IMG/VR virus record: IMGVR_UViG_3300022833_000033
Coordinates: 1-30,789 of that record
Source of the DNA: a virus
Reading direction: 5' to 3' (one strand)
Length of the DNA stretch: 30,789 nt
Every line of letters starts with the position of its first letter. Within the stretch, counting starts at the first letter, position 1. The position numbers were made by a program, and so were the translations under genes. A model generated the notes under the pieces. That model did not search any database. It was not told the DNA's origin and worked only from the letters and a program-made list of their open reading frames with translations. Below are positions 1 through 28,296 of the stretch, one piece after another.

Positions 1-533
1 TTAGTTCCGGTCCATAGCTGCATTTTAACAGATTGCAAATCAGGCAAGATTTTATGATACAAATCAATAATCTCATCATGAGGGCAGGGAGGTATCTTTG
101 ATGCCGTAATGCTTTGTTCTTCTGTTCTTTCCTTCTTACCTTCTTTAGTAGTTGTTATTTGATTGTTATTTGTTTGCTGTTTGTTTGTTGTTTTGATTGT
201 TGCTTGGCTTGTTACTTCGTCACTTTTTGATTGGTAAATCTCATAGTTTGTGATGCCTACAAGCGTGTTTCTGTTTGTTGTTTTGATTGTTATGTCGTTA
301 GTTAATTTTAGCTTAGACAATGACGTTCTAATTTTCTGTGAAGAGAGGCCAATTTGCTGAGATAACTTATCTACACTGGTTATTATCTGACCTCTTTTAA
401 TGTCAATGCCGCGCCAGTTTTTTGGCTCATAGTTAACAGTTAAAAGTAAGTGGGTAAACAGTCGCATAGTATTTGCGTCGGTGTACCATTCCCAATCCAA
501 AAGTGATCTGTGTAATTTTATCCAACCGGACAT
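1..533 (-). CDS. Phage replication initiator-like protein, 5' part (runs off left edge)
   Basis: Reads 177 full codons from ATG at 533 and is still open at position 1. The N-terminus (MSGWIKLHRSLLDWEWYTD) is the hallmark of phage replication-organiser (O-like) proteins. It is followed by a winged-helix-like stretch (SVDKLSQQIGLSSQKIRTSLSKL, written here only in part: residues about 67-90), a Q/N/T-rich linker, and the segment CPHDEIIDLYHKILPDL that typically opens the C-terminal domain of these proteins. Such proteins bind the phage origin and recruit host helicase. An AGGAAG Shine-Dalgarno lies about 8 nt before the ATG. Joined in frame to 30789-30612 it would give a 236-residue protein, a normal length for the family. 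The family is clear; the exact mechanism is inferred. Confidence 0.8.
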   Translation of the reverse strand, partial: MSGWIKLHRSLLDWEWYTDANTMRLFTHLLLTVNYEPKNWRGIDIKRGQIITSVDKLSQQIGLSSQKIRTSLSKLKLTNDITIKTTNRNTLVGITNYEIYQSKSDEVTSQATIKTTNKQQTNNNQITTTKEGKKERTEEQSITASKIPPCPHDEIIDLYHKILPDLQSVKMQLWTGT

Positions 534-1840: not shown

Positions 1841-1993
1841 TCACCTATCACCTTTGCGTTTATCTTTTTCCATCGCTGTTCGTATAGCATCGCGCACTAT
1901 ATCGCTGTACGTTTTGCCTGTTTCTTGGTTCTTATCTTTTATCCACTTCCATAAGTCTAGATTGAGCGGCATGGGTGCTAACTTCTTTGGCAT
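1841..1993 (-). CDS. Ribbon-helix-helix (Arc/CopG-like) DNA-binding protein
   Basis: 50 residues. A short N-terminal strand (about residues 6-12, LAPMPLNL) is followed by two predicted helices, DLWKWIKDKNQETG and TYSDIVRDAIRTAMEKDK. This is the size and order of a ribbon-helix-helix dimer of the Arc/CopG class, in which the strand enters the major groove. It is the first gene of the minus-strand early cluster and lies directly beside four 23-bp repeats in the divergent promoter region, the usual setting for an autoregulated RHH repressor. The family call rests on sequence pattern; the operator assignment is inference. Confidence 0.6.
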   Translation of the reverse strand: MPKKLAPMPLNLDLWKWIKDKNQETGKTYSDIVRDAIRTAMEKDKRKGDR

Positions 1994-2042
1994 AATATTC
2001 TCTTTAGTGATTAATTAAGTGCTTACTTTAACACTATATGTA

Positions 2043-2124
2043 TATCTAATCAATATGTAATATTATATCTAATAGATATGTAATATTATATCTAATCAAT
2101 ATGTAATATTATATCTAATAGATA
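2043..2124. repeat. Four tandem 23-bp AT-rich repeats (operators or iterons)
   Basis: TATCTAAT begins at 2043, 2066, 2089 and 2112, an exact 23-bp period. Copies 2 and 4 contain the perfect dyad TATCTAATAGATA; copies 1 and 3 carry the imperfect form TATCTAATCAATA. The connector TGTAATATTA is identical in copies 1-3. The array lies between the divergent early operons, and copy 4 abuts the -35 box of the plus-strand promoter. Minus-strand TATAAT sequences occur inside the repeats. The likely reader is the neighbouring RHH protein; a replication-origin iteron role is the alternative. Confidence 0.75.
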
Positions 2125-2134
2125 TAGATAAGTG

Positions 2135-2163
2135 TTGACGCGATGATCATAAAAGACTATTCT
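2135..2163 (+). promoter_or_regulatory. Early promoter for the plus-strand operon
   Basis: TTGACG (2135-2140), 17-nt spacer, TATTCT (2158-2163). Start expected near 2170, about 30 nt before the first gene at 2201. It is immediately downstream of the 23-bp repeat array, so a bound repressor would cover the -35 box. Confidence 0.6.
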
Positions 2164-2200: not shown

Positions 2201-2893
2201 ATGAGCACATTATCAGTATTCGACGCATCAGTAACAGAAGCAAAGCTGCAAGAAATCGAGCATACATCTACTACGTACACAGATTTATGGGTAGATATGG
2301 ACGATGCAGAAGCACGTAAGTTTGTCAAAGCCAGGTCGTCAGAAATTACCGACATTGTAAAGCGTATTGATCGTTCGCGAATTGACATTGTAAAAGACTA
2401 CAGGGTAAAAGTAGAAGACGAGGCAAGCGCAATTATTACACGTTTAAGCGCTGCAAACATACCGTTTAGCGACTTGATTAACGAGCATAAACTCAAGCGC
2501 GACAAGATCTTAGCAGACAAGAAAGCGCGGCAGGATGCAATAGACTTAGCGTTTGAGATTGATCGCGATCATGAGTTTGCATTATTAATCGATCATAAGG
2601 TTATGCAAGATAAAGCCGATGCGGTCAAGGCTCAGAGAGAGTATGACCAAGCTATAGCTAGCGAGGCCGCAGATAACGCACGAGAAGAGATCAAGCGTCA
2701 AATAGAATATAATGCAAGCGCTAAAGCCGAAGCTGAGGCACGCCGTAGAGCCGACAGAGATCATGTTGGTAATGTAAGAAAATCAGCAAAGGAATCTTTG
2801 ATGATGTATGCTAATCTCAGCGAAGAAGATGCGCGAACTGTAGTATTAGCTATTACTAACGATCTAGTTAAGAATATAACAATAAAATACTAA
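2201..2893 (+). CDS. Coiled-coil protein of the recombination cluster
   Basis: 230 residues with a central to C-terminal, highly charged helical region (about residues 85-205, rich in K, R, A, D and E) that is a clear coiled-coil candidate. The N-terminus MSTLSVFDASVTEAKLQEIE and the segment about residues 30-80 resemble phage proteins of the DUF1351/'coil-containing' type found beside single-strand annealing genes. AAGGTG precedes the ATG. It is the first gene of the plus-strand early operon, directly upstream of the Sak4-like ATPase. A recombination role is likely by context but not shown by any catalytic motif. Confidence 0.65.
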   Translation: MSTLSVFDASVTEAKLQEIEHTSTTYTDLWVDMDDAEARKFVKARSSEITDIVKRIDRSRIDIVKDYRVKVEDEASAIITRLSAANIPFSDLINEHKLKRDKILADKKARQDAIDLAFEIDRDHEFALLIDHKVMQDKADAVKAQREYDQAIASEAADNAREEIKRQIEYNASAKAEAEARRRADRDHVGNVRKSAKESLMMYANLSEEDARTVVLAITNDLVKNITIKY

Positions 2894-2984
2894 GGGCTTG
2901 CTAATTTATTTTTAATGTCACACAATAAGATATACACAAATACAAACTGATTTAAATTTTTATACACTATAACGAGGTTACACA

Positions 2985-3632
2985 ATGGCTACTCCTATAA
3001 TGATTGTCGGCGAAAGCGGTACTGGCAAATCAACATCAATGCGCAATCTATCACCCGATACGACTGCTATCATACAAGTAATTAACAAACCTTTACCTTT
3101 TAAAAATAGCTTTGTTCGACGCACTCAGCAAAATCCTAACGGAACACTGATGGTCACGGATAATGCCGATACTATTTCGGCCGCAATTCTTGGATTCTCT
3201 AGAAAAGGCATAAAAGATATCATTATTGATGACTTTCAATATCTTATGGCTAACGAATTCATGAAGCGTTCAGAAGAAAAAGGATTCCAAAAATTTACTG
3301 ATATAGCTAAAAATGCATGGTCTGTAATTATGTCAGCTCAGTCAGTTCCAGAAAATTCTAACATATATTTTATGACTCATAGTCAAGTAGACGACAATGG
3401 AGTTACTAAAGCAAAAACAATAGGCAAGTTACTAGATGAGAAAATATCACTAGAAGGTTTATTTACTATGGTTTTAGGCTCTTACAGAGACAACGACGGC
3501 AACTATCAACTAAGAACACAAAACAATGGTAGCAACACTGTGAAGTCTCCTATGGGAATGTTTATCAACGAAAGCGTAGACAATGACTTAAAAGAAGTAT
3601 CAAACAAAATCAATCACTATTACGGAGAGTAA
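2985..3632 (+). CDS. Sak4-like RecA-fold ATPase (putative single-strand annealing protein)
   Basis: 215 residues. Walker A is GESGTGKS (residues 9-16), Walker B IIIDDF (79-84), and a sensor-like strand with polar end IYFMTHSQ is at 127-134. This compact RecA-core architecture without other domains matches the phage Sak4 group and related AAA proteins, which promote annealing of single strands with a partner SSB. The next gene, 1 bp downstream, encodes an SSB-like protein, as expected for Sak4. GAGGTT lies before the ATG. A generic phage ATP-binding protein is the alternative. Confidence 0.75.
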   Translation: MATPIMIVGESGTGKSTSMRNLSPDTTAIIQVINKPLPFKNSFVRRTQQNPNGTLMVTDNADTISAAILGFSRKGIKDIIIDDFQYLMANEFMKRSEEKGFQKFTDIAKNAWSVIMSAQSVPENSNIYFMTHSQVDDNGVTKAKTIGKLLDEKISLEGLFTMVLGSYRDNDGNYQLRTQNNGSNTVKSPMGMFINESVDNDLKEVSNKINHYYGE

Positions 3633-3633
3633 A

Positions 3634-4242
3634 ATGAATCAACCTATTATGACATATGATGAAAGACAAGGAATGAAAGCCGGTGGTGGTAATTTTATCA
3701 GCGAGGGTGGAGCTTATATTTGTACAATAACCGAAGCAAAATACGTTGAAGCAAAAACCAAGACTAGCGGTTTAGAATTCAGCTTTGAATCATCTGACGG
3801 TCAAAAAATAAACTTTATAAATGTTTATTATGCCAAGCAAAATGGCGAGAAAGTAACTGGTGGCGCATCAATACTTAATGCAATGATGGGATTGTGCGGT
3901 ATAAACCAAATGACATCTAGCCAAAACATTAATGGCTTTATATGTCCTGAGCTGACAGGTAAAAAAATAGGCGTATTTCTGCAAAAGACTATTTATTCAA
4001 AGGGTGATGGCTCAGATGGTTATAAGTTTGATATCCGCGTACCTTACGACATAAACACTGGTAAAACTCTACGCGAAAAGGTCTCTAACGACTCAGCACG
4101 AACTATTGAGTCTTTATCGTTTACTTATAAAGATAAGGACGAGCGTACCGCACACGCTATGCAATCATCGTCTATGGCTAGCGATTCATACAGTAATCAG
4201 CAATCGCAAGATGATAGTTACATACCTGGCTTTGACGACTAA
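3634..4242 (+). CDS. DUF669-like SSB protein with acidic C-terminal tip
   Basis: 202 residues. The core (about residues 20-140) has the pattern GGAYICTITEAKYVEAKTKT followed by GLEFSFESSDGQ and INFINVYYAKQNGEK, seen in phage DUF669/OB-like single-stranded DNA binding proteins. Residues 160-195 form a Q/S/D-rich linker, and the protein ends DDSYIPGFDD, which mimics the DDDIPF tip through which bacterial SSB recruits partners. It is encoded 1 bp after the Sak4-like gene with its own GGAG site. The ssDNA-binding role is inferred from the core pattern, tail and partner. Confidence 0.65.
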   Translation: MNQPIMTYDERQGMKAGGGNFISEGGAYICTITEAKYVEAKTKTSGLEFSFESSDGQKINFINVYYAKQNGEKVTGGASILNAMMGLCGINQMTSSQNINGFICPELTGKKIGVFLQKTIYSKGDGSDGYKFDIRVPYDINTGKTLREKVSNDSARTIESLSFTYKDKDERTAHAMQSSSMASDSYSNQQSQDDSYIPGFDD

Positions 4243-4412
4243 AACTAATTTGGGTTGAGACTTATCCTTAAGAAGAACCGGTCCGAAGGTGTCCGCCAAA
4301 ACTAACGCTGTGCTGTGCATAGATCCCGAATTTAAATCTTGCACTTGTATTAATACATGTCTCGTAATCATGAAATGTAAAGCTTAGGACCAAATAATTA
4401 TAGGAAAACATT
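4243..4412. other. Unassigned stretch between the SSB-like gene and the small-gene block
   Basis: About 170 bases with no credible gene. Short frames exist on both strands but lack ribosome-binding sites. The block around 4270-4310 is richer in G and C than its surroundings. It could be the remnant of a deleted gene or a small RNA, but no promoter or terminator could be fixed. Confidence 0.3.
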
Positions 4413-5751: not shown

Positions 5752-6157
5752 TTTTAAAGTAGGCAACAAAGTAGAAAGGATTAAACCGCAAACAGTAACA
5801 AATATTACTCTTGGGGGTTATTTAGAGATTGACAATGAATCTGTGTATGTCCACTGCTCCGACGGCTTTAAGCTATCGCCACCTAAGATTATATACTCTA
5901 ACCCACCGCTTTCACATTTTGAGCTACGGATAGAGCACGCTAAGGGTGCTGACATTGAATTTAGGTCTAACTCTGATCGTTGGCTTTATGTTTCTATTCC
6001 ATCTTGGTTAGAGGATCATGACTACAGAGTTAAGCAAATTAAGAGCGAGGCCGAGAAGCGTATTGATATACTACAAAAAATGATAGATGATTATGGACAG
6101 CACATAATAAATTGTCGCTGCGAGTTATCTTCGTTAAAACCAAAGATTAACTATTGA
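5744..6157 (+). CDS. Hypothetical phage protein, 137 aa
   Basis: N-terminal beta-rich part (MNNFKVGNKVERIKPQ...) followed by 'HFELRIEHAKGADIEFRSNS' and 'PSWLEDHDYRVK' (about residues 57-100). That order, I-x2-A-x-GA-x-I-x2-R ... W ... P-x-W ... YR-[IV]-K, recurs in many small phage proteins of unknown function. The C-terminus is a coiled-coil helix ending with CRC. It is the last gene of the plus-strand early operon, before the terminator at 6272. Confidence 0.65.
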   Translation: MNNFKVGNKVERIKPQTVTNITLGGYLEIDNESVYVHCSDGFKLSPPKIIYSNPPLSHFELRIEHAKGADIEFRSNSDRWLYVSIPSWLEDHDYRVKQIKSEAEKRIDILQKMIDDYGQHIINCRCELSSLKPKINY

Positions 6158-6185
6158 CGCACAAGCAAATGTAAATTATTATTTG

Positions 6186-6214
6186 TTTGTCTTAGCAATA
6201 CCGCGAAAGACAAA
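6186..6214 (+). terminator. Weak hairpin after the early operon
   Basis: TTTGTCTT (6186-6193) pairs perfectly with AAGACAAA (6207-6214), and a T-rich run follows at 6221-6228. It may be a secondary terminator or processing stem upstream of the main one. Confidence 0.35.
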
Positions 6215-6271
6215 TATACGCTTTTTTTATTGAATATTTTTTGTTATTAATGTGGTTTAGTCCTGATTTTT

Positions 6272-6294
6272 GCCCACTTTTTGTGGGCTTTTTT
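6272..6294 (+). terminator. Rho-independent terminator of the plus-strand early operon
   Basis: GCCCAC (6272-6277), loop TTTTT, GTGGGC (6283-6288), then TTTTTT. Perfect stem and T tract in the plus direction. It lies between the converging early and late operons. The minus direction lacks a T tract after the stem, so late transcripts may read through. Confidence 0.88.
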
Positions 6295-28244: not shown

Positions 28245-28273
28245 ATTTTAACATACGTTATATATTACAACAA
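28245..28273 (-). promoter_or_regulatory. Probable late promoter for the terminase operon
   Basis: On the minus strand TTGTTG (28273-28268), 17-nt spacer, TAAAAT (28250-28245). The -10 is good and the -35 weak, as expected for an activator-dependent late promoter. It is overlapped by the inverted repeat at 28257-28296. Confidence 0.45.
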
Positions 28274-28296
28274 AGTATATGCTTGTAATATATAAC
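28257..28296. promoter_or_regulatory. 14-bp perfect inverted repeat (operator candidate)
   Basis: GTTATATATTACAA (28257-28270) is mirrored exactly by TTGTAATATATAAC (28283-28296) with a 12-nt spacer. It covers the spacer and -35 of the late promoter and lies between divergent genes. A dimeric regulator, for example one of the HTH proteins encoded just downstream, is the likely ligand. A smaller dyad TGCAT/ATGCA follows at 28310-28324. Confidence 0.65.

Follow-up and report, generated by a model that had tools for sequence, protein, structure and literature searches.

What is the role of a short array of regularly spaced repeats lying between two divergent operons of a virus? The question is raised by a virus record of 30,789 bases, classed linear, the whole of which is called the window below. 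A sequence-only reading had seen here four repeats beside a gene for a small ribbon-helix-helix (RHH) protein, and had proposed a cooperative operator, with the iterons of a replication origin as the other possibility. We suggest that the array, which lies between divergent early promoters, is very probably an operator for the RHH protein encoded next to it, and that it would serve both autorepression and the control of early replication and recombination genes.

Repeats and divergent promoters

The features of the intergenic region are as follows.

2025-2033, minus strand: extended -10 of the predicted leftward promoter PL, TGT-TAAAGT
2042-2056, no strand: operator copy 1, candidate site, imperfect dyad ATATCTAATCAATAT with two symmetry-breaking positions
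2048-2053, minus strand: -35 of PL, TTGATT, spacer 17, inside the symmetry-breaking right half of copy 1
2065-2079, no strand: operator copy 2, candidate site, perfect 15-mer dyad ATATCTAATAGATAT
2088-2102, no strand: operator copy 3, candidate site, imperfect dyad ATATCTAATCAATAT with two symmetry-breaking positions
2111-2125, no strand: operator copy 4, candidate site, perfect dyad ATATCTAATAGATAT, a perfect 17-mer with its flanks
2135-2163, plus strand: candidate rightward promoter PR, TTGACG-17-TATTCT, conserved in relatives

The four 15-bp copies follow each other at a pitch of exactly 23 bp. They were found by an unprompted repeat search, in which bases 2041-2079 (39 bases) have an exact second copy at 2087-2125 and a 90% match at 2064-2102, successive starts being 23 and 23 bp apart. 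This bears out the array and the pitch described earlier, together with the division into perfect copies (2 and 4) and imperfect ones (1 and 3, with two mismatching positions), while the bounds are corrected from 2043-2124 to 2041-2125. The description of the array as two copies of a 46-bp unit holds in part: copies 1-2 and copies 3-4 are identical over 39 bp, but the final 7 bases differ (GTAATAT vs AGATAAG).

The period-23 self-match of the array region amounts to 54 positions over 60 bp. In 2,000 Markov sequences of equal AT-richness, the best self-match over all periods from 10 to 59 had a mean of 34.5 and a maximum of 43. Shuffling this stretch yields an equally good 15-bp dyad in 9% of cases. 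The dyads by themselves are not remarkable in such AT-rich DNA; what exceeds chance is the regular spacing and its conservation among relatives.

Promoter-like matches by themselves are no commoner than in shuffles, and it is conservation that points to the predicted PL and PR. In the window and nine distinct relatives (10/10) the leftward promoter has the form TTGnnn-17/18-TGnTAAAGT and the rightward one the form TTGAC[GTA]-17-TAnnnT. The first choice of the promoter scanner for PL, ATTACA-17-TATAGT, was dropped in favour of TTGATT-17-TGTTAAAGT, which is the conserved one of the two. The PL -35 box lies in copy 1, and the left site of every one of the nine relatives has TTG at the same position (TTGATT, TTGATG/A or TTGCAA/C), so that the sites overlap the promoter assigned to the RHH gene. 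At the other end of the array, perfect copy 4 is separated from the PR -35 by a gap of 9 bp. For most relatives the gap between the right site and this box is 8-10 bp; the best alignment of L119 and of L122 is in other registers.

The site pair in relatives

Relatives of the 50-residue protein were found in viral contigs at 94%, about 61% and about 50% identity. A first search returned two contigs with the 94% protein, one of which (L002) includes the promoter, and an alignment-based search added contigs with RHH relatives at 48-64% identity. The nine relatives counted here are the distinct ones with the promoter intact; they are kin, so the counts are not independent samples.

ATAT-N7-ATAT occurs twice at exactly 23 bp in eight of the nine, always between both promoters, with one such pair per relative locus and none elsewhere in the loci examined; L119 keeps the gene and has no exact second site. 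This joint presence of RHH gene, divergent promoters and site pair argues for the operator reading. The sequence-only reading would have been weakened by relatives that keep the gene and lack the array, and for the two-site form the same eight relatives show the opposite. When gaps of 3-12 and spacings of 12-33 were scanned over the nine promoters, gap 7 with spacing 23 fitted 8/9 and the runner-up 2/9. With six lineage representatives the observed maximum was 5, vs at most 3 in 300 shuffled sets. Among relatives outside the window's group the self-similarity peaks at 23, and its value at this period is 92 vs 65 (sd 5), reached in none of 1,000 shuffles.

L002 has the same promoter with a single site pair, and over the 54 bp that run from its first site through the PR -35 it is identical to window positions 2087-2140. 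The two sequences differ at 6 of 93 positions in the flanks, 10 of 153 in the RHH gene and none in this 54-bp segment; the array thus diverges less than its surroundings, a contrast that is not significant alone (Fisher p = 0.086). Within PR, the hexamers are the same and the spacers differ at 2 of 17 positions. The distance from the PL -10 to the PR -35 is 64-66 in the nine relatives vs 110 in the window. The comparison shows that the proposed operator consists, in its basic form, of two sites of about 15 bp each (ATAT-N7-ATAT) placed 23 bp apart. The window has this pair doubled, and is alone in having four copies.

Where protein identity is 94%, the sites do not differ; in the groups at about 61% and 50% it is the inner bases that differ, and the outer arms are kept. 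The direction fits a regulator and an operator that change together, four groups being a small sample. L031 is related through its Sak4 gene; its leading leftward ORF encodes a different protein, of 57 residues, and no such 23-bp site pair was found on reading its intergenic region. Exact-pattern matches to the array in viral contigs other than L002 were taken as chance, no relative of the RHH protein being present there. No close relative of the 50-residue protein was found in the genome collection, where one MAG has a generic RHH protein at 40% with a GC-rich upstream region free of the array. In the cultured-phage collection no such array and no clear relative of the protein were found, the two weak matches being to Vibrio phages, one of them near a tailspike gene. 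In the cultured phages carrying phrog_1376 (Pseudoalteromonas BS5, PHS3, Pq0, PS_L5, H105/1 and H6/1) no relative of the protein was found, and no array on reading.

The alternation of imperfect and perfect copies can be related to PL. Copy 1 is probably imperfect because one half of it doubles as the PL -35 box (TTGATT): a perfect dyad would require TAGATAT where the promoter requires TCAATAT. The right site, free of this constraint, is perfect in both the window and L002. The alternation would thus need no special code, with copy 3 presumably being a passenger copy of the left site. Copy 3 holds a second TTGATT (2099-2094), and 17 bp on there is TCTATT instead of the conserved TGnTAAAGT. Copies 2 and 3 are joined by GTAATAT, which is also the linker within the site pair of L002 but is found in neither flank of that pair. 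A single, simple duplication of 46 bp in an L002-like allele is thereby ruled out, and two or more exchanges in the 23-bp register or a lost intermediate allele are therefore required. Expansion in the window lineage is the simpler direction, because all nine relatives have the short spacing.

The adjacent protein and its neighbours

The genes on both sides of the array, in order along the window, are the following.

3-533, minus strand: DnaD-like helicase loader, distal gene of the leftward strand, cut by the window end (phrog_2514, E=1e-31)
1841-1993, minus strand: gene of the 50-residue protein, likely of the RHH DNA-binding type, first in the leftward operon (ORF, relatives, AlphaFold2 topology)
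2201-2893, plus strand: gene of the phrog_1376 family (E=3e-20), first of the rightward operon
2985-3632, plus strand: Sak4-like single-stranded DNA annealing ATPase (phrog_2872, E=1.5e-80)
3634-4242, plus strand: single-strand DNA-binding protein (phrog_743, E=1e-35)

AlphaFold2 predicts for the monomer two helices, 12-25 and 29-48, behind an unstructured N-terminus (mean pLDDT 75 and 79). This agrees with the RHH layout of a short strand followed by two helices with RHH spacing, and the unstructured strand is as expected if it forms only in the dimer, the predictions being of monomers. The nearest PDB structures by Foldseek/VIA are mainly RHH proteins (MatP, ParD2, CopG, Arc, NikR and CopASO), at weak scores (Z at most 5.6). 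The PHROG profile of Arc-like repressors matches weakly (E=0.036). Pfam RHH_1 appears at E<=1 in 5 of 10 aligned family members, and the Pfam search with the window's own protein gave no match, RHH_1 included. The earlier assignment of the gene to the RHH proteins is backed by the topology and by weak structure and profile matches, which make it likely rather than proven.

A replication and recombination context is present in the window, L113 and L116. Small genes lie between the RHH gene and the DnaD-like gene on the leftward strand, and in L116 a DnaD-like gene likewise lies on the strand of the RHH gene. The first rightward gene differs between the window and L002, and the gene that follows the RHH gene is a different one in each of the window, L001 and L002. 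The module of RHH gene, operator and two promoters thus persists while its neighbours change. The terminase is closest to those of phages named after Leptolyngbya, Pseudomonas, Alteromonas, Listonella and Vibrio.

The replication gene bears on the proposal that the repeats are origin iterons bound by a phage initiator. The repeats are tandem and AT-rich, there is a DnaD-like/O-like gene on the leftward strand, and both skews, GC and AT, switch sign near the array. However, this switch tracks the change of gene strand, and GC skew was rejected as origin evidence for this reason. The replication gene is 1.5 kb off and has short repeats of its own, and the gene adjacent to the array is the RHH gene, not an initiator gene with direct repeats conserved beside it. 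What weakens the iteron proposal further is that relatives carry just two degenerate sites, phased to PL and PR and not to an initiator gene. We regard it as very improbable.

The changing gene next to the RHH gene concerns a second proposal, that the protein is an antitoxin and the array a toxin-antitoxin operator. Antitoxins (ParD2, MazE and TacA) are among the many close folds, but there is no fixed toxin partner beside the RHH gene in the window, L001 and L002, and the short protein has little space for a C-terminal toxin-binding tail, which leaves this proposal only a very slight chance. The size of the protein also matters for a third, in which the array is the partition centromere of a plasmid-like prophage, bound by an RHH protein of the ParG, omega or ParR type. 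Such proteins do bind promoter-overlapping repeat arrays (PMC5016525). Nevertheless, 50 residues leave no space for an N-terminal extension of the ParG kind, the relatives have only two sites, and among the neighbours examined (the record being a fragment) there is no ParA-, ParM- or TubZ-like motor, the nearby ATPase being Sak4-like. A centromere is hardly credible here.

Several further elements were noted around these genes. A small protein at 1268-1480, inside the RHH-led operon, matches Pfam GP17, superinfection exclusion (E=1.7e-5). Leftward genes start with a near-identical ribosome-site cassette, AGGTGATATATG or close to it, at 1480-1493, 1651-1664 and 1835-1848, as well as in L001 (157-170) and L002 (5145-5160); past the RHH gene, each of these three loci has a different gene behind the cassette, which suggests gene swapping at a short boundary. 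The rightward genes have AAGGTnTAnATCATGA in common. Just upstream of the DnaD-like gene there is an inverted repeat at 543-637, with 23-nt arms (91%) and a 49-nt loop, enclosed by a weaker second one at 499-707; a leader RNA structure is possible. The linker-coding part of the DnaD-like gene (158-307) contains three 15-nt repeats that recall the origin repeats inside lambda O, and there may be only repeated amino acids behind them.

Two largely non-coding stretches, 4240-4408 and 6137-6294, are 93% and 88% identical to L002; their counterparts there (reverse complement of 2887-3055 and 3070-3231) adjoin, whereas in the window 1.7 kb of small ORFs lies between them. Rfam gave no match for these stretches. 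A perfect 14-bp inverted repeat, GTTATATATTACAA/TTGTAATATATAAC, lies at 28257-28296 in an intergenic region with a leftward gene upstream and rightward small ORFs after it, and is another operator candidate.

Proposed action and known systems

Step 1: PL would read the RHH gene and, further on the same strand, the DnaD-like replication gene, with a single leftward transcript probably extending that far. PR would read the recombination and SSB genes. Early expression would be high at first.

Step 2: As the RHH protein builds up, its dimers would occupy the sites side by side, and we infer that they would do so cooperatively. Copy 1 overlaps PL, and its occupation would block this promoter, which would result in the autorepression of the RHH-led operon.

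Step 3: Copy 4 lies close to PR, and its occupation may block PR or lower the access of RNA polymerase to the upstream AT-rich stretch, so that early expression would be turned off. Additional sites are expected to sharpen or strengthen the repression.

The sign of control at PR could also be the reverse: the array-bound RHH protein might recruit RNA polymerase and activate PR while repressing its own PL. All sites are upstream of the PR -35, at the 8-10 bp spacing kept in most relatives, and the RHH protein AmrZ is described as both activator and repressor (PMC3325190). However, a near-consensus TTGAC. -35 box with a 17-bp spacer is found in every relative, which is unusual for an activator-dependent promoter, and the characterised RHH regulators of archaeal viruses act mainly as repressors (PMC5569661). 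We consider activation of PR unlikely, and repression at both promoters is the action that we propose.

Switches of this kind are already known, and the details that are new here, namely the grammar of two sites 23 bp apart, the overlap with a -35 box and the doubling in this phage, bring no new principle. The Arc repressor of phage P22 is a short phage-coded RHH protein of about 53 residues, which acts near its own promoter, and a single Arc operator comprises two half-sites. The window protein is likewise short and phage-coded, and Arc is among its matched folds (Z 4.0-4.5). Unlike in Arc, the region between the divergent replication and recombination operons here has sites of 15 bp, two to four in number and spaced by 23 bp, and the sequence identity in the structural alignment is 7-13%. 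The DNA-binding domains of CopG, NikR and MatP have the same two-helix fold by structure comparison, but their sequence identity is low (12-24%) and their operators are different.

The omega repressor of pSM19035 is an RHH protein acting on tandem repeats that overlap promoters, with the affinity set by the repeat number (PMC5016525). Its heptads are 7-bp units that also serve partition, whereas the units here are dyads of 15 bp that repeat every 23 bp, and the neighbours examined include no partition ATPase. SvtR, AvtR and F55 are RHH regulators of specific promoters from archaeal viruses; some such regulators fill several sites in order and repress their own gene, and F55 uses two tandem repeats with the consensus ATAGATAGAGT (PMC5569661). 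They act on archaeal promoters in an unrelated gene neighbourhood, and are compared with the present protein as viral RHH regulators, not as sequence relatives.

More tentatively, and at somewhat less than an even chance, the loci may represent an undescribed family of phage RHH early switches with two 15-bp sites exactly 23 bp apart, one of them doubling as a -35 box. The inner bases would change with the protein, and the site number would be tuned by unequal exchange in the 23-bp register, which would give close relatives switches of different strength.

Last, the locus offers a regulator and an operator that can be tested together, from uncultured phages with a terminase akin to the enzymes of marine and other gammaproteobacterial phages. 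With one architecture, three protein lineages and three inner site sequences, it forms an unusually clean natural series, which would show how the choice of bases depends on the residues of the small RHH protein. A comparison for the effect of operator number on an early switch is provided by the alleles with two and with four sites, whose proteins are 94% identical.
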